Origin: Geoalkalibacter subterraneus
Lineage (GTDB): Bacteria; Desulfobacterota; Desulfuromonadia; Desulfuromonadales; Geoalkalibacteraceae
Length of the DNA: 64,000 bases
Reading direction: 5' to 3'
NCBI RefSeq assembly: GCF_000827125.1
Contig: NZ_CP010311.1
Location: 1,612,001 to 1,676,000, forward strand
The position numbers were made by a program, and so were the translations under genes. Under the pieces are notes generated by a model. It was not told the DNA's origin. It did not search any database and saw only the letters and a list, made by a program, of their open reading frames with translations. Positions 1 to 63,738 of the stretch are shown piece after piece; the stretch's first letter is position 1, and every line of letters begins with the position of its first letter.

Positions 1-149
1 AGATCAAGCAGGATGTGTCGAGTTTGAGTCAGGCGGCTCGAAGGCTTGAGATGCGGATCGAGAGTGATTCACCCCTGGAGGAGCGCTTTGAAGCAATTCA
101 GGGAATGATTGCGAATCCCCATTTGTCAAGCCTGACCCCTTGTGCGTAA
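1..149 (+). CDS. C-terminal end of a probable REP-type transposase (5' end outside window)
   Basis: An open frame enters from the left edge (codons in phase with position 3) and stops with TAA at 147-149, giving about 48 residues. The segment with DVSSLSQAARRLEMRI resembles the C-terminal DnaA-like/HTH tail found on many IS200-like REP-associated (Y1) transposases of Deltaproteobacteria, where a phrase like 'SSLS..xRRLE' is common. The catalytic domain, if present, lies outside the window, so intactness cannot be judged. The family assignment rests on this short tail only. Confidence 0.4.
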   Translation, partial: IKQDVSSLSQAARRLEMRIESDSPLEERFEAIQGMIANPHLSSLTPCA

Positions 150-181
150 CAGTAGGTCAACCGGATGGAAGAGAGGAGCCC

Positions 182-550
182 ATGCCGAAAAACACCACTG
201 ATGAACAACGCGAACGTCTCGTTGCTGATATGCGCAAGGAAGAAGCGCAGCGGCAAGCCAGTTATCGGGAGAAAGCACTGAAATTGTTTCCTCACGTCTG
301 CGGGCGTTGTGCTCGCGAATTCGAAGGGAAGAAACTGCGTGAGCTGACCGTACACCACAGAGACCACAATCACGACAACAACCCGCCCGACGGCAGCAAT
401 TGGGAACTTCTGTGCATTTATTGTCACGATCACGAACATACCCGGGGCATACAGGAGCAGCGGGACGCGGATAGTTCTCCGAACGAGACGGGGGGCGCCT
501 CGTTGGTACATTCACCCTTTGCGGCCCTTGCGGAGCGGTTCAAGAAGTAA
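182..550 (+). CDS. yajD: YajD-family HNH nuclease
   Basis: The protein has 122 residues starting at ATG 182; GAGGAG at about 172-178 serves as ribosome binding site, and the longer frame from 140 overlaps the upstream gene. The HNH core is visible: CGRC near residue 40, then HHRDHNHDN and NWELLCIYCHDHEH. This is the two-CxxC, HHxDH...N...CxxCH layout of small zinc-stabilised HNH proteins. The C-terminal HSPFAALAERFKK is typical of YajD. The fold implies metal-dependent DNA cleavage, but the cellular role of YajD is not established. It sits between two transposase remnants, so it may belong to accessory DNA. Confidence 0.8.
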   Translation: MPKNTTDEQRERLVADMRKEEAQRQASYREKALKLFPHVCGRCAREFEGKKLRELTVHHRDHNHDNNPPDGSNWELLCIYCHDHEHTRGIQEQRDADSSPNETGGASLVHSPFAALAERFKK

Positions 551-710
551 GTCGGCGGTGAGTCTGCTGTTTTATCTGGTCCGGATCGGTCCGGGGGCAG
601 ACCAACCCAGGTATTTGAAACTAGGCTCAAAGAACCGTTTTTGCACCTTTTTTCAGGCTTTAAGCGGCCCATTTTGGCTATGAAATGAAATGTTAAAGGG
701 GGGGGATGGA

Positions 711-842
711 ATGCCATGCAAGCGCATCTCGTACTTTTTGCCGGGGCGCGTCTGGCACATTATGCTATGTTATGCAGGTCCGACCCAGCTCATTGGCCCG
801 ACCTGGCTTATTATTGAACATCATTTGAAGGGTAGTGCCTGA
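711..842 (+). pseudogene. Possible N-terminal remnant of a REP-associated transposase
   Basis: The 43-codon frame from ATG 711 begins with KRISYFLPGRVWHIM. This resembles the start of IS200-like REP-associated transposases, where a basic stretch and 'PG.VWHI/YHV' precede the first catalytic histidine. After about 18 residues the resemblance ends and the frame runs into a stop overlapping the next start codon. The rest of the 551-841 gap shows no other recognisable feature. The similarity is short, so this is a tentative call. Confidence 0.25.
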
Positions 843-1447
843 TGTATCGTATTTTCCTCCTGCTGTTCTTGGTTCTGTTGTTACCCTTTTTTGTCGGCTG
901 TCAGCGCGACCTGGAGGCTCTTCCCGAAGACGCAGTCATCCTGGCTTTCGGTGATGATTATACTTACGGCACCGGCGCCGAAAAAGGAGAAGGGTACCCC
1001 GCGGTGCTCGAGCGATTGATAGACCGTAAGGTGGTCAACGCCGGGGTGCCCGGGGAGACCACCGCAGAAGGGCTGGAGCGGCTGCCCGGGGTTCTCGCCG
1101 AGGTGCGTCCCGACCTGGTGATCCTTTGCCATGGCGGCGCAGACATGAGGCAGGGACTCAAGGCGAAGAAGCTCGTCGCTAATCTCGAAGCGATGATTCG
1201 GCTCATCAAGGAAGCCGATGCCGAAGTTCTTCTGATCGCTGTTCCCCCGCCGGCCCATTTCCTCCAGCCGGCAACGTTCTATTCAGAGATTTCCCGCGAA
1301 ATGGACGTCCGCATTGAGATCAACTCACTGACCAATATCCTCTCTCGGGAGGAGTTGAGCACGGAAGAGACCTACCCCAACGCCGAAGGATACGCCAAGC
1401 TGGCCAAGGCGATTTCCAAGCGCCTCAAAATGACTCCGTTAAAATAA
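842..1447 (+). CDS. SGNH/GDSL-fold lipoprotein lacking catalytic residues
   Basis: A 201-residue protein with a hydrophobic signal sequence and lipobox ending in Cys20 (FFVGC), so it is predicted to be a lipoprotein. The body matches the TesA/arylesterase branch of SGNH hydrolases in length and block order: FGDDYTYG near residue 40, VNAGVPGETT, HGGAD, and YPNAEGYAKLA at the C-terminus. In active enzymes these blocks read GDSL/GDSLT, NAG..G, GGND and D..HPN. Here the nucleophile Ser is Asp, the oxyanion Asn is Ala, and the Asp/His pair is Glu/Tyr. The fold appears kept and the chemistry lost. It stands alone in its transcription unit, with no close downstream gene on the same strand. Confidence 0.75.
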   Translation: MYRIFLLLFLVLLLPFFVGCQRDLEALPEDAVILAFGDDYTYGTGAEKGEGYPAVLERLIDRKVVNAGVPGETTAEGLERLPGVLAEVRPDLVILCHGGADMRQGLKAKKLVANLEAMIRLIKEADAEVLLIAVPPPAHFLQPATFYSEISREMDVRIEINSLTNILSREELSTEETYPNAEGYAKLAKAISKRLKMTPLK

Positions 1448-1525
1448 CGGGTGTCAAATGGGATTACCCCGCACCTTGAGCAAGGAAAGCTTCAGGCTCT
1501 GAAACGGCTCTCTTGGAGCAGATAT

Positions 1526-1861
1526 TTACTTTCTCTTTGTTGAGCGCCGCGTGCGCCGGGGTTTTTCCTGAGCCGTCTCCATGACAGATGCAGTGTTTTT
1601 TTTGGGACGCGCCGGTTTGATGCGGATGCAGCGATCGACCAGGCGGGCACCGTCGAGCATGTTGAGGGCATCCCGGGCTTCGTCTGCAGTGCTCATGCAC
1701 ACAAAAGCGCAGCCCTTGAACTGCCCCGAGACACGATCATTGATCAGGTGAACCGAACGCACCGTCCCGCAGATCGCAAAAAGTTTCTGCAGGTCGTCTT
1801 CTGTGGCGTTGAATGAGATGTCGGACACGAAAAGATCTTTGTTTGTTGAAATATCCTTCAT
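1526..1861 (-). CDS. RRM-type RNA-binding protein
   Basis: A 111-residue protein with one RNA-recognition motif filling residues 9-85. The RNP2 strand is DLFVSDISF and the RNP1 strand is KGCAFVCM, with acidic and hydrophobic spacing as in bacterial Rbp proteins. The remaining C-terminus (about 25 residues) is basic and Lys/Arg/Thr rich, which would add non-specific RNA affinity. One aromatic position of RNP1 is replaced by Cys. Its ATG overlaps the stop of the 53-residue gene upstream (ATGA at 1858-1861), which implies translational coupling. Bacterial single-RRM proteins of this kind are often cold- or stress-linked, but no target can be read from the sequence. Confidence 0.85.
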   Translation of the reverse strand: MKDISTNKDLFVSDISFNATEDDLQKLFAICGTVRSVHLINDRVSGQFKGCAFVCMSTADEARDALNMLDGARLVDRCIRIKPARPKKNTASVMETAQEKPRRTRRSTKRK

Positions 1862-2019
1862 TCAGAGTCGCTTTCCTGCTCTCCATCCGTCTCGTCGTTT
1901 GCTGTGTCTTCAGCAGTTTCTGTGTCTGGACGCTTGCGTAGCCGCTTTTCCTCTTTTTTGGCCTTTTTCGCCAGTTCTTTTTTTCGTTTTTCAAAATTGT
2001 AATTGGGTTTTTTGGCCAT
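1858..2019 (-). CDS. Small charged protein (53 aa) coupled to the RRM protein
   Basis: Begins MAKKPNYNFEKRKKELAKKA. The first 32 residues are strongly basic and probably helical; residues 33-53 are acidic (Asp/Glu/Thr/Ser) and probably disordered. AAGGAGTGCTCC lies just upstream of the ATG at 2019, giving a good ribosome binding site, and the stop overlaps the RRM gene start by the ATGA pattern. The charge split suggests an RNA- or protein-binding adaptor, but this is inference. I do not recognise a named family. Confidence 0.7.
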   Translation of the reverse strand: MAKKPNYNFEKRKKELAKKAKKEEKRLRKRPDTETAEDTANDETDGEQESDSE

Positions 2020-2042
2020 GGAGCACTCCTTGAGAAAGAGGG

Positions 2043-2831
2043 TTACAGTGACAGTTCGGCGTGTCCCTGGTGGAGTTGTTCGCGCATGCGGGTGATCTCG
2101 GGGTTGTCCAGATATTCCTCGAAATTCATCACCCGGTCGATGATGCCGGACGGCGTGAGCTCGATGATCCGGTTGGCGACAGTATTGACGAATTGATGAT
2201 CGTGCGAGGAGAGCAGGACCACTTCTGGAAAGTCGATCAAGCCGTTGTTAAGGGCGGTGATCGATTCGAGGTCGAGGTGGTTGGTCGGTTCGTCAAGCAG
2301 CAGGATGTCCGGGTTGCCGAAAAGGGCCTGTGCGAGAAGCACCCGCACTTTATCGCCGGCTTCAAGCTCTTTCATTTTCTTGTGGCGAAGCTCTTCCGGG
2401 ATGCCGAGGCCATTCAACAGCACTGCTGCCTCGGTTTCAGCCTCGTAGCCGTTCATCTCGGCAAATTCGGCTTCCAGTTCGCCGGAGCGGATGCCGTCGT
2501 CTTCGTTGAAGTCAGCCTTGGCGTAGATCGCCTCGCGCTTGATCATGACCTCGTAAAGCCGCCTGTGCCCCATGATAACGGTGTTGAAAACGGTTTGCTC
2601 ATCAAAGGCGAACTGATCCTGGCGCAGCATGGCGATGCGCTCGCCCGAGGTGACGTTGATCTCGCCCTTGTCGGTTTCGTTTTCACCGGCCAGGATCTTG
2701 AGAAAGGTCGACTTGCCGGCACCATTGGCGCCGATTAGTCCATAACAGTTGCCGGGGGTGAACTTGATGTTAACGTCTTTAAAGATCACTCTCTTGCCAT
2801 AGGCGAGAGAGATGTTTGATGCACTGATCAT
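2043..2831 (-). CDS. Internally deleted ABC-F ATPase (single chimeric ABC domain)
   Basis: A 262-residue product, where YbiT-like ABC-F proteins are normally about 530 residues with two ABC domains. Residues 1 to about 180 follow the first ABC domain: Walker A GANGAGKST, the QDQFAFDE region, and signature-equivalent MKELEAGDKVRVLLAQALF. At the Walker B motif LLLDEPTNHLDLE the text switches to the end of the second domain: SITALNNGL, then SHDHQFVNTVANRIIE with the H-switch, and the usual C-terminal tail. The inter-domain linker and most of ABC2 are missing in frame. Start ATG 2831 is chosen because the family begins MISA.NISLAYGKR; a further upstream ATG would add unrelated residues. ABC-F factors act on ribosomes as paired-domain enzymes, so this form is unlikely to work in the usual way. 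Confidence 0.8.
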   Translation of the reverse strand: MISASNISLAYGKRVIFKDVNIKFTPGNCYGLIGANGAGKSTFLKILAGENETDKGEINVTSGERIAMLRQDQFAFDEQTVFNTVIMGHRRLYEVMIKREAIYAKADFNEDDGIRSGELEAEFAEMNGYEAETEAAVLLNGLGIPEELRHKKMKELEAGDKVRVLLAQALFGNPDILLLDEPTNHLDLESITALNNGLIDFPEVVLLSSHDHQFVNTVANRIIELTPSGIIDRVMNFEEYLDNPEITRMREQLHQGHAELSL

Positions 2832-2850
2832 TGCGTGGGAAAGTCCTTTT

Positions 2851-2892
2851 TCAGAAAAAATAAAAACCGCAGGGATCACCCCTGCGGTTCAT
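2851..2892 (-). promoter_or_regulatory. Terminator hairpin and possible leader peptide ahead of the ABC-F gene
   Basis: On the minus strand a perfect 10-bp stem (arms 2865-2874 and 2880-2889, 5-nt loop) is followed by a T-rich tract (complement of 2852-2864), the form of an intrinsic terminator. It ends only about 20 nt before the ABC-F ATG at 2831, leaving no room for a promoter. A 13-codon frame from ATG 2892 (MNRRGDPCGFYFF, stop at 2851-2853) runs through the hairpin, and AAGGA lies upstream. Upstream again, GGGG/CCCC/GGGG blocks at 2920-2940 could form alternative stems. This is the layout of an attenuator. The alternative is a plain terminator for an upstream leftward gene, but none is visible. 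Confidence 0.55.
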
Positions 2893-3282
2893 GGATTGAT
2901 GCTTCCTTATACCACTTTTCCCCTGATGGGGACAATCCCCTTATTTCATCATGTGGGAGATATCTGCGGGGGTGGACCTGTCCAGGTCTCCGAATCTGGT
3001 GCGATGTTGCACAGGCCGACCTGGCAAGTGCCCAACCAGGAAAGCAGACGATGGTCATTCTGGTTAACGTCGACATTGCTGGCCAACAGGGACAACGTGC
3101 CTGAATAGCCTGTGGCAGCAACTGAACCTGACAGGTTCTCTTGATGGGGTATTCTCTCGTTTTGAATCCAGCCAGAACTTCAATCTCGTTGATGTTGGTG
3201 CTGTCTTCTTTGCCGGGCCGTTAGGCCTGGCGGTGACCAAGGGGTATAATTTTGCCCGGATTTTTCAAGGCTAAGGCAGTGA
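2893..3282. other. Non-coding or degenerate stretch between ABC-F and toxin-antitoxin genes
   Basis: No intact gene is found. Rightward, pieces such as ADLASAQPGKQTMVILVNVD (about 3020-3080) and, in a different frame after a stop, LVDVGAVFFAGPLGLAVTKG followed by YNFARIFQG (about 3185-3272) have protein-like composition. They could be parts of one frameshifted gene. I cannot name a family for them. The part nearest 2893 probably belongs to the ABC-F leader. Confidence 0.35.
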
Positions 3283-3390
3283 TCTACTGGCGGCGATCCA
3301 GGCAAAATGGACCGCGAGGCGCTGCAATCCGCCCTTGGCCTTTCAGATCGCAAATCCTTCCGCGAGCGCTATCTGATTTTGAAGGTTTGA
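3283..3390 (+). pseudogene. C-terminal winged-helix fragment of a Fic or RecG-like (AlbA_2) protein
   Basis: The short frame ending at TGA 3388-3390 contains MDREALQSALGLSDRKSFRE and then RYLI. This matches the winged-helix tail at the end of many Fic proteins and AlbA_2/RecG-like ATP-binding proteins, where it normally continues about 25 residues beyond 'RYL.PAL'. Here it stops early and has no upstream body, so it is a remnant. The stop overlaps the -35 region of the toxin-antitoxin promoter. Confidence 0.5.
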
Positions 3391-3420
3391 CTGACGACTT
3401 TTTATGGACTATATTTAGTC
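3387..3420 (+). promoter_or_regulatory. Promoter with overlapping palindrome for the toxin-antitoxin operon
   Basis: TTGACT (3387-3392) and TATATT (3410-3415) are separated by 17 bp, a good sigma-70 pair. The -10 lies inside the perfect inverted repeat GACTATATTTAGTC (3407-3420). A strong Shine-Dalgarno, AGGGAGG (3424-3430), and ATG 3436 follow. The palindrome is well placed to be the operator through which the antitoxin or its complex represses its own operon. Confidence 0.7.
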
Positions 3421-3435
3421 TCTAGGGAGGTGTTC

Positions 3436-3711
3436 ATGAGACTCAGCAGCCAGATCAAGCCAATCAGCTATCTCAAAGCTCATGCCGCAGAGATTGTGCG
3501 CAATCTTGGAGAGCAGGGTGAGCCCCTGGTTATTACTCAGAATGGCGAAGCGAAGGCGGTCATCCAGAACATTAAAAGTTATGAGCAGATGCAGGAAACC
3601 ATGGCGTTGCTGAAAATGCTTGCTCTTGGTTCTCGTCAAATTGAAGAAGGGAAGGTCCAGCCTGCTGGCGTAATCGTCAGACGCTTGCGGGAGCGGCGGG
3701 AGCGCTTTTGA
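3436..3711 (+). CDS. Phd/YefM-family antitoxin
   Basis: A 91-residue protein beginning MRLSSQIKPISYLKAHAAEI, the usual Phd/YefM N-terminal DNA-binding fold. The 'PLVITQNGEAKAVI' strand-turn and the 'YEQMQETMALLKML' helix follow. The C-terminal part is the expected toxin-neutralising segment, ending in an arginine-rich run. ATG 3436 is preferred over GTG 3430 because AGGGAGG sits 5 nt before it. The stop codon overlaps the toxin start (TGATG), which couples the two. In this family the antitoxin both binds the toxin and represses the operon. Confidence 0.92.
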   Translation: MRLSSQIKPISYLKAHAAEIVRNLGEQGEPLVITQNGEAKAVIQNIKSYEQMQETMALLKMLALGSRQIEEGKVQPAGVIVRRLRERRERF

Positions 3712-4037
3712 TGCCGTTTCAGGTTTATTTAACGCAGGACGCTGCTCACGACCTCGAGGATATCTATGATTATATTTTTCACCTTGATGTCGAGGGAAAG
3801 GCGGATAATGTCCTTGATCGGATAGAAAAAACTTTTGAAAGTCTGACAGAAAATCCCTTGCGGGGAGCCTCTCCCAAAGAATTACTCGATATCGGGATTC
3901 AGGAATACCGGGAGGTTTTCTTTAAGCCGTATCGCATTGTTTACAGAATCATCGATGACTTTGTCTACGTTCTTCTGATTGTGGACGGGCGGCGTGACAT
4001 GCAGACGCTTCTGCAACGCAGGCTAATCAACGCTTGA
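3711..4037 (+). CDS. RelE/ParE-family toxin
   Basis: A 108-residue toxin with the ParE/RelE layout: FQVYLTQDAAHDLEDIYDYI at the N-terminus, the 'LTENPLRGASPKELLDIGIQEYREVFF' turn, and the PYRIVYRIIDDFVYVLLIVDGRRD strand pair. The terminal segment is a basic helix with LLQRRL. RelE members cleave mRNA on ribosomes while ParE members poison gyrase; the N-terminal helical pair and 'YREVFFKPYRI' phrase favour ParE, but the sequence does not settle it. The gene overlaps its antitoxin by 1 nt. The pair lies directly upstream of the Wadjet operon. Confidence 0.9.
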   Translation: MPFQVYLTQDAAHDLEDIYDYIFHLDVEGKADNVLDRIEKTFESLTENPLRGASPKELLDIGIQEYREVFFKPYRIVYRIIDDFVYVLLIVDGRRDMQTLLQRRLINA

Positions 4038-4132
4038 ATATTCAACGCCGGTCAAGCCAGCTCTTTTCAGCTGCGAATGATCGTACCTGAAGGGTGCTCA
4101 GCAAGAAACTTTTCGCAGCAAAGACTCACTTC

Positions 4133-5584
4133 ATGTCTCTCGATTACACCACTCTTGACCTTCTGCGCAAAAACCATCCCGCCTGGCGACTGCTGCGTTC
4201 AGATCATGCCCCTCTGGTGGCGAGCTTTCTGCACCGGGTTTTTATCGCGCCCAACGTGCGCACCATGGCGCAGGCCGATCTGGCCGAAGCGCTTGAGGAC
4301 GAGCTTTTCGCTCTGCGCGACCGGTATGGAGAAGAGGCGTTTCCGCGTTCGGCCGCCGCCTATCTCAACGACTGGGCAGATAACGAGAAGGGCTGGCTGC
4401 GTAAATTCTATCCTGCCGGCTCAGATGAACCTCATTTCGACCTGACTCCGGCGACGGAAAAAGCCATCGCCTGGCTGGAGAGCCTGACCGAGCGCGCTTT
4501 CGTGGGGACCGAGTCGCGGCTGCTGACCCTGTTTGAGCTGCTGCGGCAGATGAGTGAAGGCAGCCAGACCGATCCCGAAACGCGCATCGCGGAGTTGCAC
4601 AAGCGCCGGAACGAAATCGACGCCGAAATTGCCCGCATCCTCGATGGCGATATCCCGCTGTTGGATGCAACCGCCTTGAAGGATCGCTTTCAGCAGTTTC
4701 TGCAGCTCGCCCGCGAACTGCTCACCGACTTTCGAGAGGTGGAGCACAATTTCCGCACTCTCGATCGGCGGGTGCGCGAGCGCATCGCCCTGTGGGAGGG
4801 CGCCAAAGGTACGCTGCTCGAAGAGATCATGGGCGAGCGCGATGCCATCGCCGATTCCGACCAGGGCAAAAGCTTTCGTGCCTTCTGGGATTTTCTCATG
4901 TCCCAGCGTCGCCAGGAAGAGTTGAGTCATCTGCTCGAACAGGTTCTCGAACTTGAGCCCATTGCCGAGATGCACCCTGATGCGCGCCTGCGGCGGGTGC
5001 ATTACGACTGGCTGGAAGCCGGCGAACATACTCAGCGTACCGTTGCGCGCCTGTCACAGCAGCTGCGGCGTTTTCTCGACGACCAAGCCTGGCTGGAGAA
5101 TCGCCGCATCATGGATATCCTGCACGACATTGAGGGGCGCGCCTTGGCGGTGAGAGAGACTCCACCCCCTCGCGATTTCATGGAGCTGGCGGAGAGCGCT
5201 CCACGCGTTGATCTGCCTTTTGAACGCCCCCTTTACAGCCCGCCGGTCAAACCGGTGATTGCCGATGTGGAGCTGGAAAGCGGTGAAACGGACATTGATA
5301 CGGCGGCCCTTTATGCTCAGGTTGTGGTGGATCGCGCCGAGCTGCTGCGCAACCTGCGCCAGGCTCTGCAGGAGCGCTCCCAGGTTACTCTCGGCGAGGT
5401 CGTTGCCCGCCATCCCCTGCGCCATGGCCTGGCGGAGCTGCTGACCTATCTGCATCTGGCCGGCGACTGGCCCGAAGCTGTGGTTGACGAGGAGCAGCAG
5501 GATCTGATCGAATGGCGCACCGAAGAGGGAACGGTCCGTCGCGCCCGTCTGCCGCGCATAGTCTTTTTGAGGAAGAACGGATGA
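4133..5584 (+). CDS. jetA: Wadjet subunit JetA (DUF3375)
   Basis: A 483-residue protein of the DUF3375 family, which is the kleisin-like subunit of the JetABC SMC complex. The N-terminus reads MSLDYTTLDLLRKNHPAWRL, which is the family signature, and supports ATG 4133 over a GTG at 4094. Long helical and coiled-coil segments fill about residues 130-330, and the winged-helix C-terminal part ends LPRIVFLRKNG. In Wadjet the complex recognises small circular DNA by loop extrusion. It is the first gene of a tightly overlapping four-gene operon: its stop overlaps jetB's start as ATGA. Confidence 0.93.
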   Translation: MSLDYTTLDLLRKNHPAWRLLRSDHAPLVASFLHRVFIAPNVRTMAQADLAEALEDELFALRDRYGEEAFPRSAAAYLNDWADNEKGWLRKFYPAGSDEPHFDLTPATEKAIAWLESLTERAFVGTESRLLTLFELLRQMSEGSQTDPETRIAELHKRRNEIDAEIARILDGDIPLLDATALKDRFQQFLQLARELLTDFREVEHNFRTLDRRVRERIALWEGAKGTLLEEIMGERDAIADSDQGKSFRAFWDFLMSQRRQEELSHLLEQVLELEPIAEMHPDARLRRVHYDWLEAGEHTQRTVARLSQQLRRFLDDQAWLENRRIMDILHDIEGRALAVRETPPPRDFMELAESAPRVDLPFERPLYSPPVKPVIADVELESGETDIDTAALYAQVVVDRAELLRNLRQALQERSQVTLGEVVARHPLRHGLAELLTYLHLAGDWPEAVVDEEQQDLIEWRTEEGTVRRARLPRIVFLRKNG

Positions 5585-6249
5585 ACCAAACTCACCCCGA
5601 ACCGATCCCCGCAGGAGAAAACGACGGCGACCTCTCTCAAGTCGTTATCCCGCTGCTTAAGGGCGTCATTTACCAGGATGAAAATACGCCCCTGTGGAAT
5701 GGCCTCCTCAATCTGCAGGCTCGGGTGCGCGACTATGTCGCCGTCCTGGGGCTTGAACTCATGCTTGACGAGGCTGAAGGTTACGCCTTTCTGCGCTCGC
5801 GGCCCGATGATGACGAGGAGCAGGGGAGCAAGCTGCCGCGTCTTGTTGCGCGCCGCCGTCTTTCTTTTCCCGTCAGCCTGCTGCTGGCGCTGCTGCGCAA
5901 GAAGCTGGCGGAATCCGATGCCGGGGGCGGCGAAACCCGCCTGATTCTGTCCCGCGACGAAGTGGTCGACCTGATCCGGGTTTTTCTCCCTGCAGGCAGT
6001 AACGAAACCCGGCTGATCGATCAGGTGGACACCCATCTCAACAAGATCGCCGAACTCGGTTTTGTGCGCCGTCTGCGTGGGCAGGAGAAGATGTTCGAGG
6101 TGCGACGCATCATCAAGGCGTTTGTCGATGCCCAGTGGCTGGCCGAATTCGACCGGCGGCTGGCTGAATATCAACAGGAACTGACTGGGCAACTGGAACT
6201 GACCGGGCAACAGGAACGGGCTGGGGAGAACGAGGGTGACGATGAGTGA
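5581..6249 (+). CDS. jetB: Wadjet subunit JetB (DUF4194)
   Basis: A 222-residue DUF4194 protein, the KITE-like subunit that joins JetA to the JetC motor. Start ATG 5581 overlaps jetA's stop and is preceded by GAGGAAG. The middle carries the family's two winged-helix modules (GLLNLQARVRDYVAVLGLEL, FPVSLLLALLRKKLAE, FLPAGSNETRLIDQVDTHLN, KMFEVRRIIKAFVDAQWL). The last 30 residues hold a short imperfect repeat (ELTGQ twice) and are acidic, probably a flexible tail. It overlaps jetC by 8 nt. Confidence 0.93.
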   Translation: MNQTHPEPIPAGENDGDLSQVVIPLLKGVIYQDENTPLWNGLLNLQARVRDYVAVLGLELMLDEAEGYAFLRSRPDDDEEQGSKLPRLVARRRLSFPVSLLLALLRKKLAESDAGGGETRLILSRDEVVDLIRVFLPAGSNETRLIDQVDTHLNKIAELGFVRRLRGQEKMFEVRRIIKAFVDAQWLAEFDRRLAEYQQELTGQLELTGQQERAGENEGDDE

Positions 6250-9200
6250 AACCCTGGAGCTTGAATTCATTGGCGACGACAAACTGGCCGGATTCCGACT
6301 GCAGCGCCTGGAGGTCCTGAACTGGGGGACCTTCGACTCCAAGGTGTGGACGCTGAACCTCGATGGCAGGAATTCGCTGCTGACGGGCGATATCGGTTCG
6401 GGGAAATCGACCCTGGTGGATGCCGTCACCACTCTGCTGGTGCCGAGTCAGCGCATCTCCTACAACAAGGCCGCCGGGGCCGATGCCCGAGAGCGCTCCC
6501 TGCGCTCCTATGTGCTGGGCTACTACAAGTCGGAGCGTCAGGATACCCTCGGCAGCGTTAAGCCGGTGGCCCTGCGTAACCACAACAGTTTTTCGGTCAT
6601 TCTGGGCGTATTCCACAACGCCGGTTACAACAAAACGGTGACCCTGGCCCAGGTGTTCTGGATGAAGGATGTTCAGGGGCAGCCGGCCCGTTTTTATGTC
6701 GCCTGTGAGCGCGATCTTTCCATCTCTGCCGATTTTTCCCGCTTCGGGACCGATATCGCGCAGCTGCGCAAACGTCTGCGGGGCGACAAAGCGGAGTTGT
6801 TTGACAGCTTCCCCCCTTACGGAGCCTGGTTCCGGCGGCGTTTCGGCATCGACAACGAGCAGGCTCTTGATCTGTTCCTGCAGACCGTTTCCCTTAAATC
6901 GGTGGGCAATCTCACGGATTTCGTCCGCAATCATATGCTTGAGCCCTTCGATGTGGCGCCGCGCATCAGCGCGTTGATCGGCCATTTCGACGACCTCAAC
7001 CGGGCCCACGAAGCTGTTCTTAAAGCCAAGCGCCAGGTGGAGATGCTCGAGCCCCTGGTGGCGGACTGCGAACGGCACGGCGAGATGGTGCAGTCCCGGG
7101 ACAACCTGCGCGCCTGCCGGGAGGGGCTGCGCCCCTGGTTTGCCGGCCTCAAGATGGCACTGCTGGACAAACGCCTCGAATCCCTGGATGAAGAGCTTCA
7201 GCGTCACCAGACTCGCATTGCCCGTCTGGAAGTACAGCGTCACGAGCAGCAGGTGCGGGAACGTGAGTTGCGCCGTACCATTGCCGAGCAGGGTGGCGAT
7301 CGCATTGAGACCCTTGCCGAAGAAATCCGCCGCAAACAGGGTGAGTTGCAACGCTGTCGGCATAAAGCCGAACGCTATGCTGAATTGATGCAGGGACTGG
7401 AACTGGTCCCGGCCGACAACGAAGAGGATTTTCTGGTTCGTCGTCGCCAGTGTGCCGACCTGCGTGAGCAGACCCTGGAGAATGAAGCACGGATTCAGAA
7501 TGACCTCAATGAAGCTGGAGTCTCCTTCGCCCAGCTGCGCAGCGAGCACGAAAAGCTGCAGGAGGAGATCCGCGGTCTGAAGGCGCGCCGCAGCAACATT
7601 GACGAAAAGCAGGTCGCGGTGCGTCGCGCCCTGTGCCGGGCCCTTGATCTTGCCGAAGACGATATGCCTTTTGCCGGCGAGTTGCTGCAGGTCCGTGAAG
7701 ATGAGCGTGACTGGGAGGGAGCCGTCGAGCGCCTGCTGCGTAATTTTGGACTGTCTCTGCTGGTGCCCGACCAGCACTATGCGCGCGTGGCCGAATGGGT
7801 CGATGCGACCCACCTGCGTGGGCGGCTGGTTTACTTTCGGGTACGCGAAAGGGCGCCTGCGGAGCTGCCGTCCCTGCATCCCCATTCTCTCGCCCGCAAG
7901 ATTCTGGTCAAGCCTGATTCAGCCTTTTACGACTGGCTCGAGCGCGAGGTGGCCCATCGCTTCGATCTGGCCTGCTGCAACGACCAGGAGCAGTTCCGGC
8001 GCGAGACAAAAGCCATCACCCGCGCCGGCCAGATCAAGGCACCGGGGGAGCGCCACGAAAAAGACGACCGGCACCGGATCGACGACCGCAGCCGCTATGT
8101 GCTGGGCTGGAGCAACGCCGCCAAAATTGCCGCCCTGGAAGAAAAAGCCCGTCTTCTGGAAATGGAACTGACAGAAACGGGCGGACATATCTCCTCTCTG
8201 CAGAAGGAGCAGAATGTTCTCAAAGAACGCCTCGGGCTGTTATCCAAGCTCGATGAATATCCTGATTTTGGCGAGCTGGACTGGCGTCCTCTGGCGCTCG
8301 AGATCTCCCGCCTGGAAGATGAAAAAGCCGACCTTGAAGCTGCCTCTGACGTTCTGAAAACCCTCGCCGACCAGCTGCAGGAGGTGGAAAAGGCGCTGGC
8401 TGAAACGGATCAGCACCTCAAGGATCGCTACGACAAACGCTCCAGGACCGAACAAAAGCGCAGCGATGCCCAGGAACTGCGACGCCAGGCCGAAGCCGTG
8501 CATCAGGATGCGACTCCGGATCAGAATGCGCAGTTCGATCACCTTGCCGTATTGCGCGATGAGGCGCTGGGCGATCAGCAGCTCACGGTGGAATCCTGCG
8601 ACAACCGCGAGCGCGATATGCGCGATTGGCTGCAGGCGCGCATCGATGCCGAAGACAAGAAGCTGGGACGCCTGCGGGATAAAATCATCGACGCCATGCG
8701 CCAGTTTCAGACCGATTATCCCCTGGAAACCCAGGAGGTGGATGTGGCAGTGGAAGCCGCCGGCGACTATCGCGCCATGCTCGATCAGTTGCAGGCCGAT
8801 GATCTGCCCCGTTTCGAGGCGCGTTTCAAGGAGCTGCTCAACGAAAATACCATCCGCGAGGTGGCCAATTTTCAATCGCAGCTCTCCCGGGAGCGTGAAA
8901 CCATCAAGGAGCGCATCGCCCGTATCAACGAATCGCTGATTCAGATCGATTACAACCCCGGTCGCTATATCGTGCTGGAGACCCAGGCCGCTCCCGATGT
9001 GGATATCCGCGATTTTCAGGCCGAATTGCGCGCCTGTACGGAAGGGGCGCTGACCGGCTCCAACGACGCCCAGTATTCCGAGAACAAATTTCTGCAGGTG
9101 CGGCGCATCATCGAGCGCTTCCGCGGACGTGAGGGGCAGACCGAGCAGGATCGGCGCTGGACCGCCAAGGTCACCGACGTGCGCAACTGGTTCGTGTTTG

Positions 9201-9607
9201 CCGCCAGCGAGCGCTGGCGCGAAGACGACAACGAGTATGAACATTACGCCGATTCAGGGGGCAAGTCGGGCGGGCAGAAGGAAAAGCTCGCCTACACTGT
9301 GCTGGCGGCAAGCCTTGCTTACCAGTTCGGCCTCGAATGGGGTGCGGTGCGCTCGCGCTCTTTCCGCTTCGTGGTGATTGATGAGGCCTTCGGGCGCGGT
9401 TCCGATGAGTCGGCTCAGTACGGACTCAAACTTTTCGCTCAGCTCAACCTGCAGCTGCTCATCGTCACGCCGTTGCAGAAGATCCACATCATCGAGCCCT
9501 TCGTCGCCGGCGTCGGTTTTGTGCATAACGAAAACGGCCGCACCTCCGTGCTGCGCAATCTGAGTATCGAAGAATACCGGGCCGAGAAGCAGAGGCAGCA
9601 GGCATGA
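6242..9607 (+). CDS. jetC: Wadjet SMC-like ATPase JetC
   Basis: A 1121-residue SMC/MukB-like motor. Walker A GDIGSGKST is at residues 49-57; long coiled coils fill roughly 280-450 and 620-900, broken by a hinge-type region. The C-terminal head has the signature SGGQKEKLAY near residue 1008 and Walker B FVVIDEAFGRGSDES near 1043. All ATPase elements are intact. ATG 6242 (MSETLELEF) is chosen; an in-frame GTG 6 nt earlier is possible. In Wadjet, ATP-driven loop extrusion by JetABC measures DNA topology and hands small plasmids to JetD for cutting. Confidence 0.95.
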   Translation: MSETLELEFIGDDKLAGFRLQRLEVLNWGTFDSKVWTLNLDGRNSLLTGDIGSGKSTLVDAVTTLLVPSQRISYNKAAGADARERSLRSYVLGYYKSERQDTLGSVKPVALRNHNSFSVILGVFHNAGYNKTVTLAQVFWMKDVQGQPARFYVACERDLSISADFSRFGTDIAQLRKRLRGDKAELFDSFPPYGAWFRRRFGIDNEQALDLFLQTVSLKSVGNLTDFVRNHMLEPFDVAPRISALIGHFDDLNRAHEAVLKAKRQVEMLEPLVADCERHGEMVQSRDNLRACREGLRPWFAGLKMALLDKRLESLDEELQRHQTRIARLEVQRHEQQVRERELRRTIAEQGGDRIETLAEEIRRKQGELQRCRHKAERYAELMQGLELVPADNEEDFLVRRRQCADLREQTLENEARIQNDLNEAGVSFAQLRSEHEKLQEEIRGLKARRSNIDEKQVAVRRALCRALDLAEDDMPFAGELLQVREDERDWEGAVERLLRNFGLSLLVPDQHYARVAEWVDATHLRGRLVYFRVRERAPAELPSLHPHSLARKILVKPDSAFYDWLEREVAHRFDLACCNDQEQFRRETKAITRAGQIKAPGERHEKDDRHRIDDRSRYVLGWSNAAKIAALEEKARLLEMELTETGGHISSLQKEQNVLKERLGLLSKLDEYPDFGELDWRPLALEISRLEDEKADLEAASDVLKTLADQLQEVEKALAETDQHLKDRYDKRSRTEQKRSDAQELRRQAEAVHQDATPDQNAQFDHLAVLRDEALGDQQLTVESCDNRERDMRDWLQARIDAEDKKLGRLRDKIIDAMRQFQTDYPLETQEVDVAVEAAGDYRAMLDQLQADDLPRFEARFKELLNENTIREVANFQSQLSRERETIKERIARINESLIQIDYNPGRYIVLETQAAPDVDIRDFQAELRACTEGALTGSNDAQYSENKFLQVRRIIERFRGREGQTEQDRRWTAKVTDVRNWFVFAASERWREDDNEYEHYADSGGKSGGQKEKLAYTVLAASLAYQFGLEWGAVRSRSFRFVVIDEAFGRGSDESAQYGLKLFAQLNLQLLIVTPLQKIHIIEPFVAGVGFVHNENGRTSVLRNLSIEEYRAEKQRQQA

Positions 9608-10779
9608 GCTGGACGACCCCCGCCGATGTGCGTGCCCAGGTGAGAAGGCTCTGGGACCGCGGCCTGCTGCCGGCGCAGCTGGTGGGCGGAGAGGAGCTTT
9701 TCCCGCGGCGAATCACTCTCAAGGGGCCCGGGTCCAAAGAGCTGGCGGAACGTTTTGACGAAGTGCGCAACTGGATTGCGCGCCTTGACGGCGAGGCGAA
9801 GCATTATCGGCTGGTATGGCGTAACGTCAATCACCGCATTCTTGGTGCCAATGCCGTCCCGGCGGAAATCTGGGTAGATTCCCTGGACGACGCTCTGAGC
9901 CTGACTGGAAGACAGAAGGACGCGCAGCGTCTTGCGGCCATCGTGGAAGAAACCCGGAAATCTCTGCCGCAGCTGATCCCCTGGCTGATCAAGCGACCGC
10001 TGCGGGCGCTGGAACTGGCCGATGACTGGACCCGCCTGCTGGCGGTTGCCCATTGGCTGCGGGAGCATCCCCGCCCTGGGATTTATCTGCGCCAGATCGA
10101 TCTTGCGGGTGTCCACACCAAGCTGATCGAAAGACATCGCGGCGTTTTGTCCGAATTGCTCGATCTGGTTCTGCCCGCAGACGCCATTGATCCTTCTCAC
10201 AGCGGTGTCGCGGGGTTCTGTCGCCGCTACGGCTTTCGGGATAAACCTCTACGGGTGCGTTTTCGTGTGCTTGATTCCAGCCTCCGTCTCCTTCCGGGCC
10301 AGGAGGAGCAGGACATCACCCTGACACAGCGGTCATTCTCGTCTCTTGAGTTGCCGGTCTCGAAAGTTTTTATCACCGAAAACGAGATCAACTTCCTGGC
10401 TTTTACGGAGGTTCCCGAGGCGCTGGTGATTTTCGGCGCCGGATACGGTTTCGAAAACCTCGCCTCCGCCCCCTGGCTGAATGAGAAAGAGATCCACTAT
10501 TGGGGCGATATCGATACCCACGGCTTTGCTATTCTTAATCAGTTGCGCAGGTTTTTCCCCCACGCTCGATCCTTCCTCATGGACCGCCGGACCTTTCTGG
10601 GCCATCGACGGCTCTGGGGGCAGGAGATGAAGCCTGAAACGGCAAACCTCGATAAGTTAAACAAAGAAGAAGCCGCCCTCTACGATCAGTTGCGCGACAA
10701 TCATTGGGGAGAGCGGATTCGGCTGGAACAGGAGAGGGTCGGGTTCGATTATCTGTGTGGTGCCCTGGACTGTCTGTGA
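9604..10779 (+). CDS. jetD: Wadjet TOPRIM nuclease JetD (DUF3322/DUF2220)
   Basis: A 391-residue protein with an N-terminal DUF3322 arm (MSWTTPADVRAQVRRLWDRG) and a C-terminal DUF2220 TOPRIM domain. The TOPRIM acidic residues are visible in VFITENEINFLAF (about residue 254) and HYWGDIDTHGFAIL (about residue 298), with GAGYGFE between them. The catalytic centre therefore appears intact. JetD is the subunit that cleaves plasmid DNA. The start overlaps jetC's stop as ATGA. It closes the operon; directly downstream lie decayed genes. Confidence 0.94.
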   Translation: MSWTTPADVRAQVRRLWDRGLLPAQLVGGEELFPRRITLKGPGSKELAERFDEVRNWIARLDGEAKHYRLVWRNVNHRILGANAVPAEIWVDSLDDALSLTGRQKDAQRLAAIVEETRKSLPQLIPWLIKRPLRALELADDWTRLLAVAHWLREHPRPGIYLRQIDLAGVHTKLIERHRGVLSELLDLVLPADAIDPSHSGVAGFCRRYGFRDKPLRVRFRVLDSSLRLLPGQEEQDITLTQRSFSSLELPVSKVFITENEINFLAFTEVPEALVIFGAGYGFENLASAPWLNEKEIHYWGDIDTHGFAILNQLRRFFPHARSFLMDRRTFLGHRRLWGQEMKPETANLDKLNKEEAALYDQLRDNHWGERIRLEQERVGFDYLCGALDCL

Positions 10780-10894
10780 GCCCTGCTTCCCCTCGGTTTG
10801 GCATGATGATATTCTGAAAAAAGGGACATGCTTCTTTCCCTTTGCGAAAATCGGCCTGTCACCTTTCAGGATTAAACTCCTTCATTTTCCCCCG

Positions 10895-11690
10895 GGACTC
10901 AAAACGGTCGAAGATGCCCTGAAAATCCGCAACAGGGTGCTGCTCGCCTACGAAGAAGCTGAATGGGAAACCGATTATGAAGCGCGTCGTGCCAAGCTGA
11001 CCTTTGTGGTGGTGGGAGGTGGCCCCACGGGGGTTGAGCTGGCCGGGGCTCTCAAGGAAATTGCCGCCCATGCGATCCCGCGCGATTTCAGGTTTATCGA
11101 TACTACAACCGCCCGGGTGATTCTCATTGAGGCGGGAAGCCGGCTGCTCCCCGCAATGCCGGAAGAATCGTCACAGTCTGCCCGGAAGCAACTCGAGCGC
11201 ATGGGGGTTGAGGTGCGCCTGAACTGCCCCGTCACGGATTTCCGCGAGGGTGAAGTCGAGCTTGGAGAAGAGGTTTTGCCTGCTGCAAATATTATCTGGG
11301 CGGCCGGTGTGCGCGGGGCGCCCCTCGCACAGACGCTGGGAGTTCCTCTTGATAAGGCTGGGAGGGTCCCCGTCAACCCGGATTTGTCCCTCCCGGGGCA
11401 TCCGGAAGTCTTCGTCGCTGGGGACCTGGCGCATGCTGTTGATTCTTTGACTCAAAAAACTGTTCCAGGTGTCGCTCCGGCTGCGATCCAGATGGGGCAG
11501 CATGTGGCAAAAAACATCCGGTCGGAAATTGAAGCCGGCGAGGGGAAGTCCAAACGGGAACCTTTTCAGTATCGGGATAAGGGAACGATGGCAACGATTG
11601 GACGCTGTCGTGCCGTGGCCTCGGTTAAAGGGGCGAAGGCATACATCAGGTATGTCGAGGTCCTGAAAAAGCGCCGTAACGCCGTAGGAC
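10895..11690 (+). pseudogene. Truncated type II NADH dehydrogenase (ndh remnant)
   Basis: Recognisable NDH-2 sequence starts abruptly at PGLKTVEDALKIRNRVLLAY and includes the NADH-binding VVVGGGPTGVELAGAL, the ANIIWAAGVRGAPLA segment and the FAD-contacting VFVAGDLAHAVDS...PAAIQMGQHVAKNI. The first 110-130 residues, with the N-terminal FAD-binding GxGxxG, are missing. The C-terminal membrane-anchoring part is lost after GTMATIGRCRAVASVKG. The surrounding open frame (10757-11827) keeps going through unrelated sequence on both sides. It cannot encode a working flavoprotein. Confidence 0.75.
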
Positions 11691-11714
11691 GGACTTTTTG
11701 CGACGCCATCACTT

Positions 11715-11902
11715 TTGGTTCGATTGGTCGAGGATCAGACCTGGCGTATTCGTGCCCGTGCTACTCATGCCCTAACCGCCTTCGCTCCGCAGTCTTTACC
11801 CGCTTTGCGCGATCTGCTCAGACATGAAAACGAAAATGTCCGAGCATCGGCTGTACAGGCGTTGAGGGTGTTGGAGCAGGAAGAGGATCTCGTAGAAGCG
11901 CT
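11715..11902 (+). pseudogene. HEAT-repeat gene remnant
   Basis: About 60 codons encode two HEAT-like helical repeats: DQTWRIRARATHALTAFA with LPALRDLLRHENENVRASAV and ALRVLE. No start region or upstream repeats exist, and the frame runs into antisense sequence of the downstream trkA. It directly follows the ndh remnant, which suggests that rearrangement joined pieces of two genes. Confidence 0.5.
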
Positions 11903-12607
11903 TTACTCTTTTCCGCTGGATTGCTCCTGCGTGTCGTGATTGTGATTGCTTGCGGTCTGTGATGGCGAGAACTTCTCCTTTAGTTTGTCGAGCACTTCGC
12001 TGTGGCAGATCAGGACAAGTTCGTCTCCTTCCTGCAATTTAATGTCTTTCTCGGTCAGAAAAAAATCACCATCGCGGTAGAAGAAGATTGCCCGGGCCTG
12101 ATCGGGTAGTTCAAGGTCGTCGATGGTTTGATGGGTGTGTTCCTGATCGATCGTGAAGGTGTAAAAGCGTGCCTCCCCCTTCATGACCGTGGAGAGTTCC
12201 AGAATGTCTACTCCGGCTACCATGTCTGCCAGATAGCGACTGATGGTGCGAGAAGGGATGATGATGTCTTCGAGCCCCAATTCCAGGCAGATATTTTCGA
12301 ACTCCCATTCATGGATGTTGAGGACGACGCGTTTGAATCCAAGGGTCCTTCCCACCAGAGCGGCGATGATATTGTTCTGGTCGTTGTCCGTCAGGCAGAA
12401 AAGAATGTCTGTATGCTTTGGGTCGGCTTCGCGCAGAATCTGCGGATGACTGCCGTCGCCATGCAGGAAACTGCAATCGAGGTTTTCCGAGAGTTCTTCG
12501 ATCTTGTTCTTGTCGGAATCGATAATAATGATCTCGTTGCCGCGATCCATCAGCAGACGGGCAGTCGTTATGGTCAGCTCGCTGGCGCCCACAAACACAA
12601 TCCTCAT
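11903..12607 (-). CDS. trkA: TrkA-type potassium channel regulator (RCK domain)
   Basis: A 234-residue protein with one RCK_N Rossmann fold (residues 1-120) and one RCK_C domain (about 135-215), i.e. half of E. coli TrkA. Such single-RCK subunits assemble as rings under TrkH/KtrB channels and gate them through nucleotide binding. The usual GAGxVG glycine loop reads GASELT, so one conserved glycine is missing; the following acidic strand end (IIIIDSD) is kept. The C-terminal 20 residues are His/Asn/Gln/Ser rich. Its ATG overlaps the trkH stop (12604-12607), so the channel and regulator are co-translated. Confidence 0.88.
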   Translation of the reverse strand: MRIVFVGASELTITTARLLMDRGNEIIIIDSDKNKIEELSENLDCSFLHGDGSHPQILREADPKHTDILFCLTDNDQNNIIAALVGRTLGFKRVVLNIHEWEFENICLELGLEDIIIPSRTISRYLADMVAGVDILELSTVMKGEARFYTFTIDQEHTHQTIDDLELPDQARAIFFYRDGDFFLTEKDIKLQEGDELVLICHSEVLDKLKEKFSPSQTASNHNHDTQEQSSGKE

Positions 12608-36385: not shown

Positions 36386-37705
36386 ATGATGCCCCTTGTC
36401 GCCATCGTCGGCCGTCCAAACGTCGGCAAATCAACCCTGTTCAATCGAATCTTCGGCCATCGCCGCGCCATCGTCGAAGATGTGCCCGGCGTCACCCGCG
36501 ACCGCAACTATGCCGAAGTGACCCGCTATGAAAAACCGTTCACGCTGGTCGACACCGGTGGTTTTGAGCCCGATTCAAAGGAGAGTCTGCTGCAGCAGAT
36601 GCGCCAGCAGTCGCAGCTGGCCATCGAGGAAGCCGATCTCATTATTTTCCTTATGGACGGTCGCGAGGGCCTGACCCCCTCGGATATGGAAGTCGCCGAG
36701 CTGCTGCGGCGCCAGCCCAAACCGGTTCTTTACGTGGTGAACAAGGTCGACGGCGAAAAGCAGGAGGAAGCGTCTCTTGAATTCTACTCCCTGGGAGTGG
36801 AAGAACTTCTGACTGTCTCCGCTGAACACGGCCGTGGCATCAGCACATTGATGGAAGCGGTGCTTGAGCTGCTTCCATCCGGATCCGGCAGGGCCGAAGT
36901 TGATGAAGTGACGCGTATTGCCGTCATCGGGCGCCCCAATGTGGGCAAGTCGAGCCTGGTGAACCGGCTGCTGGGCTTTGAGCGCGTCGTTGCCAACCCA
37001 CAGTCAGGGACAACGCGCGACAGTATCGACACGCTTTTTGTTTACAACCGCAAGCCCTACCTGCTGATTGATACCGCTGGTATCCGCCGCAAGGGCCGGG
37101 TCAGTCAGAAACTTGAAAAATTCAGCGTTGTGCACGCGCTTAAAGCCATTGATCGTGCAGATGTTGTGCTGATGGTGATCGATGCCGTGGAGGGCGTGAC
37201 CGAGCAGGATCTCAACGTCGCCGGGTATGCCCATGAAAAAGGGCGCGCCGTGATCCTGGTGGTGAACAAATGGGACGCCATTGAAAAAGACAATCAGACC
37301 CTTGGCCGTTATGTGGAAGAGGTGCGCATGGGGTTCAAGTTCATGTCCTATGCGCCGATCCAGTTCGTGTCGGCACTTACCGGGCAGCGCGTTGCACGTA
37401 TCATGGATGAGGTCTGCAAGGTGAGCGAACAGTTCAGCCGCCGGGTTTCGACCTCCGAATTGAACAAGGTGCTTGAAGCTGCGGTTGCAGCACATCAGCC
37501 TCCCATATTCCGCGGTAAAAGACTCAAGATCTTTTACATGACCCAGGTTTCAACCAAACCACCCTCATTTATTGTCTTTGTTTCCAAATCGCAGGGAATT
37601 CATTTTTCATACGAACGATATCTTCTGAACAAGATCAGGGAGCATTTCGGTTTTGAGGGAACTCCTATCCGCCTTTTTTTCCGTGACAATAAAAGTTCCG
37701 ATTGA
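36386..37705 (+). CDS. der: GTPase Der (EngA)
   Basis: A 439-residue protein with two tandem G domains: [12 protein letters not shown] with DTGGFE and NKVD, then [12 protein letters not shown] with DTAGIRR and NKWDA. A KH-like domain closes it. Der is needed for 50S subunit assembly. ATG 36386 is followed at once by a second ATG, either of which could be used. It lies 60 nt after era. Confidence 0.97.
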
Positions 37706-62505: not shown

Positions 62506-63738
62506 ATGCGTAGAGTCGTTGTAACCGGGATCGGTACAGTTTCACCCCTGGGCACGGGTACGGAAAAGAATTTTGAAGCACTGTCCGAAGGACGTTCTGG
62601 CATCGATACGATCACACGTTTCGATGCCTCTGATCTACCTTCGCAGATTGCTGGTGAAGTCCGTGATTTCAATGCAGAGGATTACATTGAAAAAAAAGAG
62701 ATCAAGAAAATGGATCTCTTTATCCAGTATGCATTGGGTGCGGCGGACATGGCCCTGAATGATTCGGGGTTTGAGATCAACGAACAGAATGCCGAGAAGG
62801 TCGGTGTTCTCGTGGGGGCCGGCCTGGGCGGTCTGCCGGCCATCGAGAAATACCACGAAGCCATGCTCAATGGCGGCTATCGGAAGATTTCACCGTTTTT
62901 CATCCCCATGCTGATCATCAATCTCGCTCCGGGCCACATTTCCATCCGTTACGGTGCCAAGGGGCCTAATGTCTCTTCTGTCTCAGCCTGCGCGACCGGT
63001 ACTCATTCCATCGGCGATGCCTATCACATGATCGCCCGTGGCGATGCCGATGCCATGTTCGCCGGCGGAACCGAGTCTACCATCACGCCCCTGGGAATCG
63101 CCGGCTTCAGTGTCATGAAGGCCCTTTCAACCCGTAATGATGATCCGACAGCTGCGAGCCGTCCTTTCGATAAGGGCCGCGACGGTTTCGTCATGGCTGA
63201 AGGGGCAGGTATCCTTTTTCTTGAAGAGTACGAAAGTGCCCGCCGTCGCGGTGCGAAAATCTATGGCGAAGTTGCCGGCTATGGCCTTACGGGCGATGCT
63301 CACCATCTGACCGCCCCCGCACCGGGTGGCGAAGGCGCTGCGCGCTGCATGAAGATGGCGCTGAATAATGCCGGCGTATCCACGGAGCAGGTCGATTATA
63401 TCAATGCTCACGGCACTTCAACTCCCTTTAATGATTTGTACGAGACGATGGCGATCAAGTCGGTATTTGGGGACCATGCCCGTAAGGTTATGATCAGTTC
63501 CACCAAGAGCATGACCGGTCATACGCTGGGAGCTGCTGGAGGCCTTGAAGCGGCTTATTGTCTTCTCGCCATGGAAAGAGGCCTTGTTCCGCCGACCATC
63601 AATTACCAGGAGCCTGACCCTGAGTGCGATCTTGACTATGTTCCCAATGAAGCGCGGCAGGCGAAGGTCGATTTCGCCTTGAGCAATTCTTTTGGTTTCG
63701 GCGGGACCAATGCCAGCCTGCTGTTTCGCAAAGTCTGA
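62506..63738 (+). CDS. fabF: Beta-ketoacyl-ACP synthase II
   Basis: A 410-residue elongating condensing enzyme. The Cys lies in [10 protein letters not shown], one His in [12 protein letters not shown], and Lys/His in [14 protein letters not shown]. Gly-rich [11 protein letters not shown] closes it. The 124-nt gap from acpP has a G-run but no clear terminator. Confidence 0.96.

Follow-up and report, generated by a model that had tools for sequence, protein, structure and literature searches.

A hybrid YbiT-type ABC-F gene in Geoalkalibacter subterraneus, probably produced by an in-frame deletion between its two Walker B coding repeats

Locus and leader of the shortened ybiT gene

The window, by which we mean the whole 64,000-nucleotide stretch of Geoalkalibacter subterraneus DNA that was analysed, carries a minus-strand gene for a protein of 262 residues (Table 1). 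The best NCBIfam model for this protein is PRK15064 (NF011646), which describes the YbiT-type ABC-F family, and, by sequence, the solved structure nearest to it is that of E. coli YbiT, a protein of 530 residues. The 262-residue protein scores 309.7 bits on PRK15064, well short of the family cut-off of 762, and in place of two tandem ABC domains it has one, 282 residues being gone. Pfam gives a single ABC_tran domain, with a weaker AAA-domain match overlapping the same region. The reading frame, the ribosome-binding-like site and the leader of the gene are all intact. That the locus is the native one is supported by the downstream small ORF and the RRM gene, one or the other of which recurs in several relatives, and by the shared leader; an RRM-like ORF, recognised by eye, also lies 3' of ybiT in L012, L013 and L015. 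On the other side of ybiT are a toxin-antitoxin pair and a Wadjet operon.

Table 1. Positions in the window of the hybrid ybiT gene, its parts, its leader and the adjoining genes
Feature	Position	Strand	Remarks
Downstream gene, RRM RNA-binding protein	1526..1861	-	
Hybrid YbiT-type ORF, 262 aa	2043..2831	-	ATG at 2831, stop at 2043
NBD2-derived tail	2043..2267	-	ESITALNNGL... SSHDHQF H-switch
Crossover interval	2268..2299	-	32-bp stretch common to both copies, coding (L)LDEPTNHLDL
NBD1-derived part	2300..2831	-	Walker A GANGAGKS, degenerate signature ELEAGDK
AAGGA, ribosome-binding-site-like	2844..2848	-	12 nt 5' of ATG; read off the sequence
Whole conserved leader	2855..2913	-	-10-like TATAAG, hairpin, U tract; model R1, 64.3 bits, this leader being one of the 23 sequences in the model
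Intrinsic-terminator-like hairpin in ybiT leader	2864..2890	-	12-bp stem and T run
Phd/YefM-type antitoxin and ParE-type toxin pair	3430-4037	+	between ybiT and Wadjet
Type I Wadjet operon jetA, jetB, jetC, jetD	4094-10779	+	adjoins ybiT; PADLOC models

The terminator-like hairpin and its T run stand about 30 bases before the ybiT ATG. A hairpin is present in the 160 bases before ybiT at 27 of 30 loci, that of the hybrid included, and 25 of these lie within 10-60 bases of the ATG, a placement seen in 1 of 600 base-shuffled leaders. Leaders from 23 of the 27 hairpin loci were aligned, all but L023, L033, L035 and L039. Over these 23 sequences pairing in the stem amounts to 96.9%, and five of its ten pairs are changed on both sides. 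Four of 500 shuffles reach this level of changes on both sides, and none of 500 attains either the covariation score or the share of paired bases. The variety of pair types does not exceed that of shuffles (204 of 500); since the leader sequences are related, these fractions are not probabilities. A promoter-like pair, often TTGCCG-18-TATAAx, is found 2-20 bases before the stem, as read from the best-scoring hexamers with no shuffled control, and a stricter promoter scan of the window lists none at the leader. Rfam has no family at gathering score in positions 1-12000 of the window, and when six loci were searched less strictly there were two matches at chance level, one of which (E 0.73) is over the L019 leader on the other strand.

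The leader model was also run over 136 genomes of the order. At E 0.001 there were 77 matches, and 72 of them precede ybiT by 17-186 bases on its own strand; among the other five, that in G415 precedes a ybiT start cut off by a contig end, and that in G403 probably does likewise. The matches cover 71 of the 90 ybiT genomes of the order (48 of 67 among those outside the model), leaving 19 without a leader-model match, and six genomes that lack ybiT give nothing better than E 0.06. Outside the order, ten of 26 ybiT genomes match at E 0.01, nine of them with the match 15-233 bases before ybiT by coordinates read by eye. Matches are also found before dbpA (L189, G102), rsgA (L190, G191), a spermidine-synthase-like gene (L191, G016), CxxC protein genes (L186, G322; L188, G102) and a 369-aa ORF (L187, G322), and there is a weak one (E 0.07) before ylqF (L171, G024). 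A further match, with E 2e-4, lies at L195 (G127), where the gene that follows is presumably, judging by eye, a pyrroline-5-carboxylate reductase. The other weak matches resemble ordinary terminators. Given that three of the matched genes (dbpA, rsgA and ylqF) are ribosome-assembly genes, the distribution suggests that the leader may be a shared attenuator, possibly an undescribed one. The abstract openings returned by a literature search on leaders name no ybiT leader terminator. Attenuation has reportedly been shown for the resistance ABC-F genes VmlR and MsrD, and our guess would be that read-through at ybiT occurs under cold or translation stress.

Junction, retained motifs and predicted fold

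The initial annotation had read the N-terminal part of the protein as the first ABC domain (NBD1) and the remainder as the end of the second (NBD2), and this is how the protein aligns: over residues 1-191 it matches the corresponding residues of YbiT from G001, a protein of 544 residues, at 88%, and its last 86 residues match residues 459-544 of the same protein at 78%. The middle is missing. Compared with the 544-residue form, 282 codons (846 bp) are gone, so that the earlier estimate of about 276 residues was somewhat low, and its description of the loss as in frame was right. The alignment confirms that a single in-frame domain collapse is real.

The junction was located with diagnostic bases, defined as positions where the base of the hybrid is shared with 80% or more of the sequences of one copy and with no more than 10% of those of the other. 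These were mapped with 28 of the 29 relatives; L029, in which one of the two motifs is altered, was left out. From 2339 to 2300 there are eight NBD1-type sites, and from 2267 to 2209 fifteen of NBD2 type, which makes a single clean switch with zero exceptions in the stretch examined. The crossover is thereby bounded to 32 bp, at 2268-2299, which code for DEPTNHLDL and lie inside the duplicated Walker B motif, as had been proposed. In the 28 relatives, the two copies of this stretch are identical at 25-32 of the 32 positions, with exact runs of 8-32 bp. The diagnostic sites, and the long form of the relatives that have the gene, support the further proposal that recombination took place between the two internal copies of the Walker B coding region.

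The hybrid keeps a Walker A (GANGAGKS), a Walker B (LLLDEP) and an H-switch (SSHDHQF), and has lost the linker, the NBD2 Walker A and the NBD2 LSGGE. Nothing is left of the tRNA-contacting PtIM linker, alignment columns 180-462 being missing. The initial picture of one hybrid ABC domain with Walker A, Walker B and H-switch intact is therefore accurate as far as these motifs go. It needs qualifying for the signature: there is no canonical signature of the LSGGQ/E type, the LSGGE that is present in NBD2 of all 29 relatives having been lost, and the hybrid retains only the degenerate ELEAGDK of NBD1. The hybrid and its closest relatives have LE[AP]GDK as the NBD1 signature; in the others it is for the most part LEGG[DE]K. 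The LEGG[DE]K of several relatives is close to canonical, so LEAGDK may not be crippling. In the clade as a whole, 28 of the 29 relatives have an NBD2 Walker A that is missing the final glycine, as in GGDSLSKT, the exception being L011.

Reasoning from ABC architecture, the full-length parent would have one canonical composite ATP site, formed by the NBD1 Walker A and the NBD2 signature. A homodimer of the hybrid would be unable to form this site, because it would pair the NBD1 Walker A with the degenerate NBD1 signature.

AlphaFold2 was used to predict a structure for the hybrid. With an alignment of 58 diverse rows it gave a confident single NBD (mean pLDDT 89.9, pTM 0.82), the best PDB match of which is E. 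coli YbiT (TMq 0.89); with a shallow alignment of 15 close sequences the pLDDT was 40.8. Of the 58 rows, 53 come from 80 distant loci, and they are mostly NBD1 homologues, which is why the model speaks only for fold compatibility. On this prediction the hybrid sequence is compatible with an NBD fold, and the model is silent on activity.

Occurrence among relatives and rate of change

The two-domain form is found at the loci of all 29 relatives (L011-L039), with lengths of 535-558 residues, mostly 544, and the undeleted ancestral form is thus present at the same locus. The alternative that the relatives might carry the 262-residue form is excluded by this, and the short form cannot be the family norm, since the examined relatives are all long. 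Matches at E 1e-40 or better occur in 33 of 40 genomes, own genome included, a set that includes weaker matches to other ABC-F paralogues. Across the order, 90 of 136 genomes (again counting its own) match at E 1e-60, and the 92 match rows include no comparable short form apart from frames cut by contig ends. Those that might be mistaken for further short forms are in G389 (314 aa) and G370 (499 aa), whose frames run off contig ends, and in G367 (505 aa, matched from residue 34), whose frame starts at one. The phylum sample has matches at E 1e-60 in 29 of 297 genomes, and its one candidate, G111 (298 aa), stops 54 bases short of a contig end and has an unrelated tail. At 80 more distant loci, from named genomes, the frame from the start of the match always exceeds 450 codons; 77 of these reach a stop, with frames of 525-666 codons. 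A protein search of a plasmid collection gave 263 records, all below 60% identity. No other genome searched has the hybrid form, the genus being represented by its own genome only.

A full-length copy elsewhere in the genome had been raised as a possibility. The genome contains no full-length second copy and no fragment of the missing middle; its other ABC-F genes, with frames of 675, 683 and 639 aa, are paralogues about 30-35% identical. A literature search on single-domain ABC-F proteins gave nothing relevant, its matches concerning fungal and plant ABC proteins.

There is no match at E 1e-60 in 46 of the 136 genomes of the order (20 of 84 among the good ones), and G004, of the same family, is among the genomes that have none. 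Judged by sequence searches, ybiT is dispensable in the order. Excerpts of a study of B. subtilis state that single ABCF disruptions leave growth on LB at 37 C unaffected, and that loss of YkpA/YbiT leads to mild stalling on charged stretches (PMC11381351). YbiT is described in another paper as broadly distributed and as a potential translation factor (PMC6723617), a text from which the terms 'single ABC', 'one ABC' and 'homodimer' are absent.

To judge how fast the retained sequence changes, it was set against two controls encoded in the window, Der (36386-37705) and FabF (62506-63738), using a fixed tree with at most 13 genomes; the Der set has 12 rows against 13, G002 having no Der match. 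At the amino-acid level, the terminal branch of the hybrid takes 7.9% of the tree for NBD1 and 10.2% for the tail, against 6.7% for Der and 7.8% for FabF. At codon positions 1+2 the corresponding shares are 7.0%, 9.2%, 7.4% and 7.3%. About 37 replacements are seen on the hybrid branch, where 27-31 would be expected at the rates of Der or FabF. Third positions have about 1.0 changes per site on this branch in NBD1 and 0.5 in the tail. For the tail, positions 1+2 and third positions have 0.145 and 0.525 on the hybrid branch and 1.59 and 8.51 over the whole tree.

Conserved columns were taken as those that are the same in at least 90% of relatives, with L039 left out. The hybrid departs from these at 1 of 129 columns in NBD1 and 2 of 32 in the tail, and intact relatives depart at 0-7 and 0-4 columns, respectively. 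Tajima-type counts, with gapped codon columns dropped, are roughly balanced for NBD1. In the tail, changes unique to the hybrid exceed those unique to G001 with all eight outgroups, the counts ranging from 7 against 4 to 11 against 1 and 12 against 2. The excess is smaller with G003 and G005 as partner, and with G002 it is even or reversed for four of the eight outgroups. The control Der leans to the hybrid lineage too (for example 47 against 30 and 47 against 27 in comparisons with G001), and FabF does not. In these comparisons the retained sequence has no clear decay and the tail may be at most weakly faster, which may reflect relaxed constraint, a faster lineage or chance. Either the deletion would be recent, or its product would have been kept from decay.

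Origin and likely fate of the hybrid

The reading that we favour, with a probability of about 0.68, is that an ordinary chromosomal ybiT underwent an 846-bp in-frame deletion, and that the hybrid product represents a loss of function. One deletion between the two direct repeats that code for Walker B would have been enough. Deletion through a short direct repeat explains the switch of diagnostic sites, the shared stretch and the in-frame loss. Slippage or annealing at short homology is a pathway for deletion between repeats, and it may have been the one followed here. The product would be one hybrid NBD, made of NBD1 as far as Walker B and then of the NBD2 tail. It would be unable to do the work of YbiT on the ribosome, because this needs two domains, and the inter-domain linker, the second ATP site and the canonical signature have been lost. 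Loss of function in a dispensable gene is the most likely outcome, and the event is probably recent, unless the gene has been spared decay for some reason.

The hybrid could instead be a working mini-ABC-F, whose NBD would homodimerise through its complete set of Walker A, Walker B and H-switch and keep some ATP-dependent function, whether on the ribosome or on a different target. The intact frame, ribosome-binding-like site and leader, the nearly unbroken conserved columns and the confident single-NBD model with E. coli YbiT as its nearest PDB entry would suit this reading; so would the normal NBD1 branch length and the lack of clear relaxation, which fit a maintained protein and also a recent loss, and a tail that is possibly faster, which might come from adapting to a new context. 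We nevertheless consider it unlikely. The form occurs in no other genome searched, so there is no sign of selection through divergence, and the linker and canonical signature are gone. The confident fold was guided mostly by NBD1 homologues and contrasts with the poor 15-row model, and the tail excess depends on the partner (G002) and is matched by a similar leaning in Der. A functional homodimeric mini-YbiT of a particular kind, lacking a linker, working with a pair of identical ATP sites whose signature is degenerate, and expressed from the promoter-proximal terminator leader of ybiT, is more doubtful again.

Two further explanations are very unlikely. An artefact of assembly or library, in which the strain has the full gene and its middle was lost between the repeats in assembly, would account for a form that is known from one assembly and is unique among the 136 genomes of the order. 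However, assemblers usually collapse repeats only at overlaps far above 32 bp, and a shared stretch of at most this length is a poor candidate for assembly collapse; moreover, the genome is in 2 contigs, is 99.99% complete and 0.29% contaminated, and has no stray middle fragment. The least probable of all is an old pseudogene in slow decay, its frame kept by chance. The gene is a single copy from a dispensable family, and positions 1+2 of the tail take a larger share of change on the hybrid branch than over the whole tree, as such a pseudogene might. Against this, there is no stop and no frameshift, the NBD1 branch length is normal and the conserved columns are kept, and neutral drift should give far more replacements than the small excess that is seen over expectation.

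As a gene-loss event the case is otherwise ordinary. Its wider interest is that tandem ABC genes carry their most conserved motif twice, and that the direct repeat which they therefore contain allows one in-frame event to reduce the pair of domains to a single one. The hybrid is a clean natural example of this, with a crossover that is closely bounded, and it is a ready-made construct with which to ask if one cassette keeps any ABC-F function.

Three known systems can be set beside it. In deletions between short direct repeats that are in frame, near-identical stretches flank an interval, one repeat is lost together with the interval, and the frame is kept exactly, all as in the hybrid, where the repeats are two Walker B motifs that derive from the gene's own domain duplication. 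The housekeeping ABC-F factor YbiT/YkpA (PDB 9njf) shares the locus and the leader of the hybrid, whose NBD1 residues 1-188 and NBD2 tail match YbiT-type proteins of the same order. It has two NBDs and a linker in about 544 residues, whereas the hybrid has one NBD and no linker in 262, with the NBD1 signature only. Finally, the homodimeric single-NBD ABC subunits LptB, ArtP and MJ0796 are of a type found among the structural matches of the hybrid model, and like the hybrid they consist of a single cassette, roughly 230-260 residues long, that has a Walker A, a Walker B and an H-switch. In single-NBD subunits such as these the signature is canonical and there is a partner in the membrane; the hybrid differs from them in its ABC-F descent and its degenerate signature.
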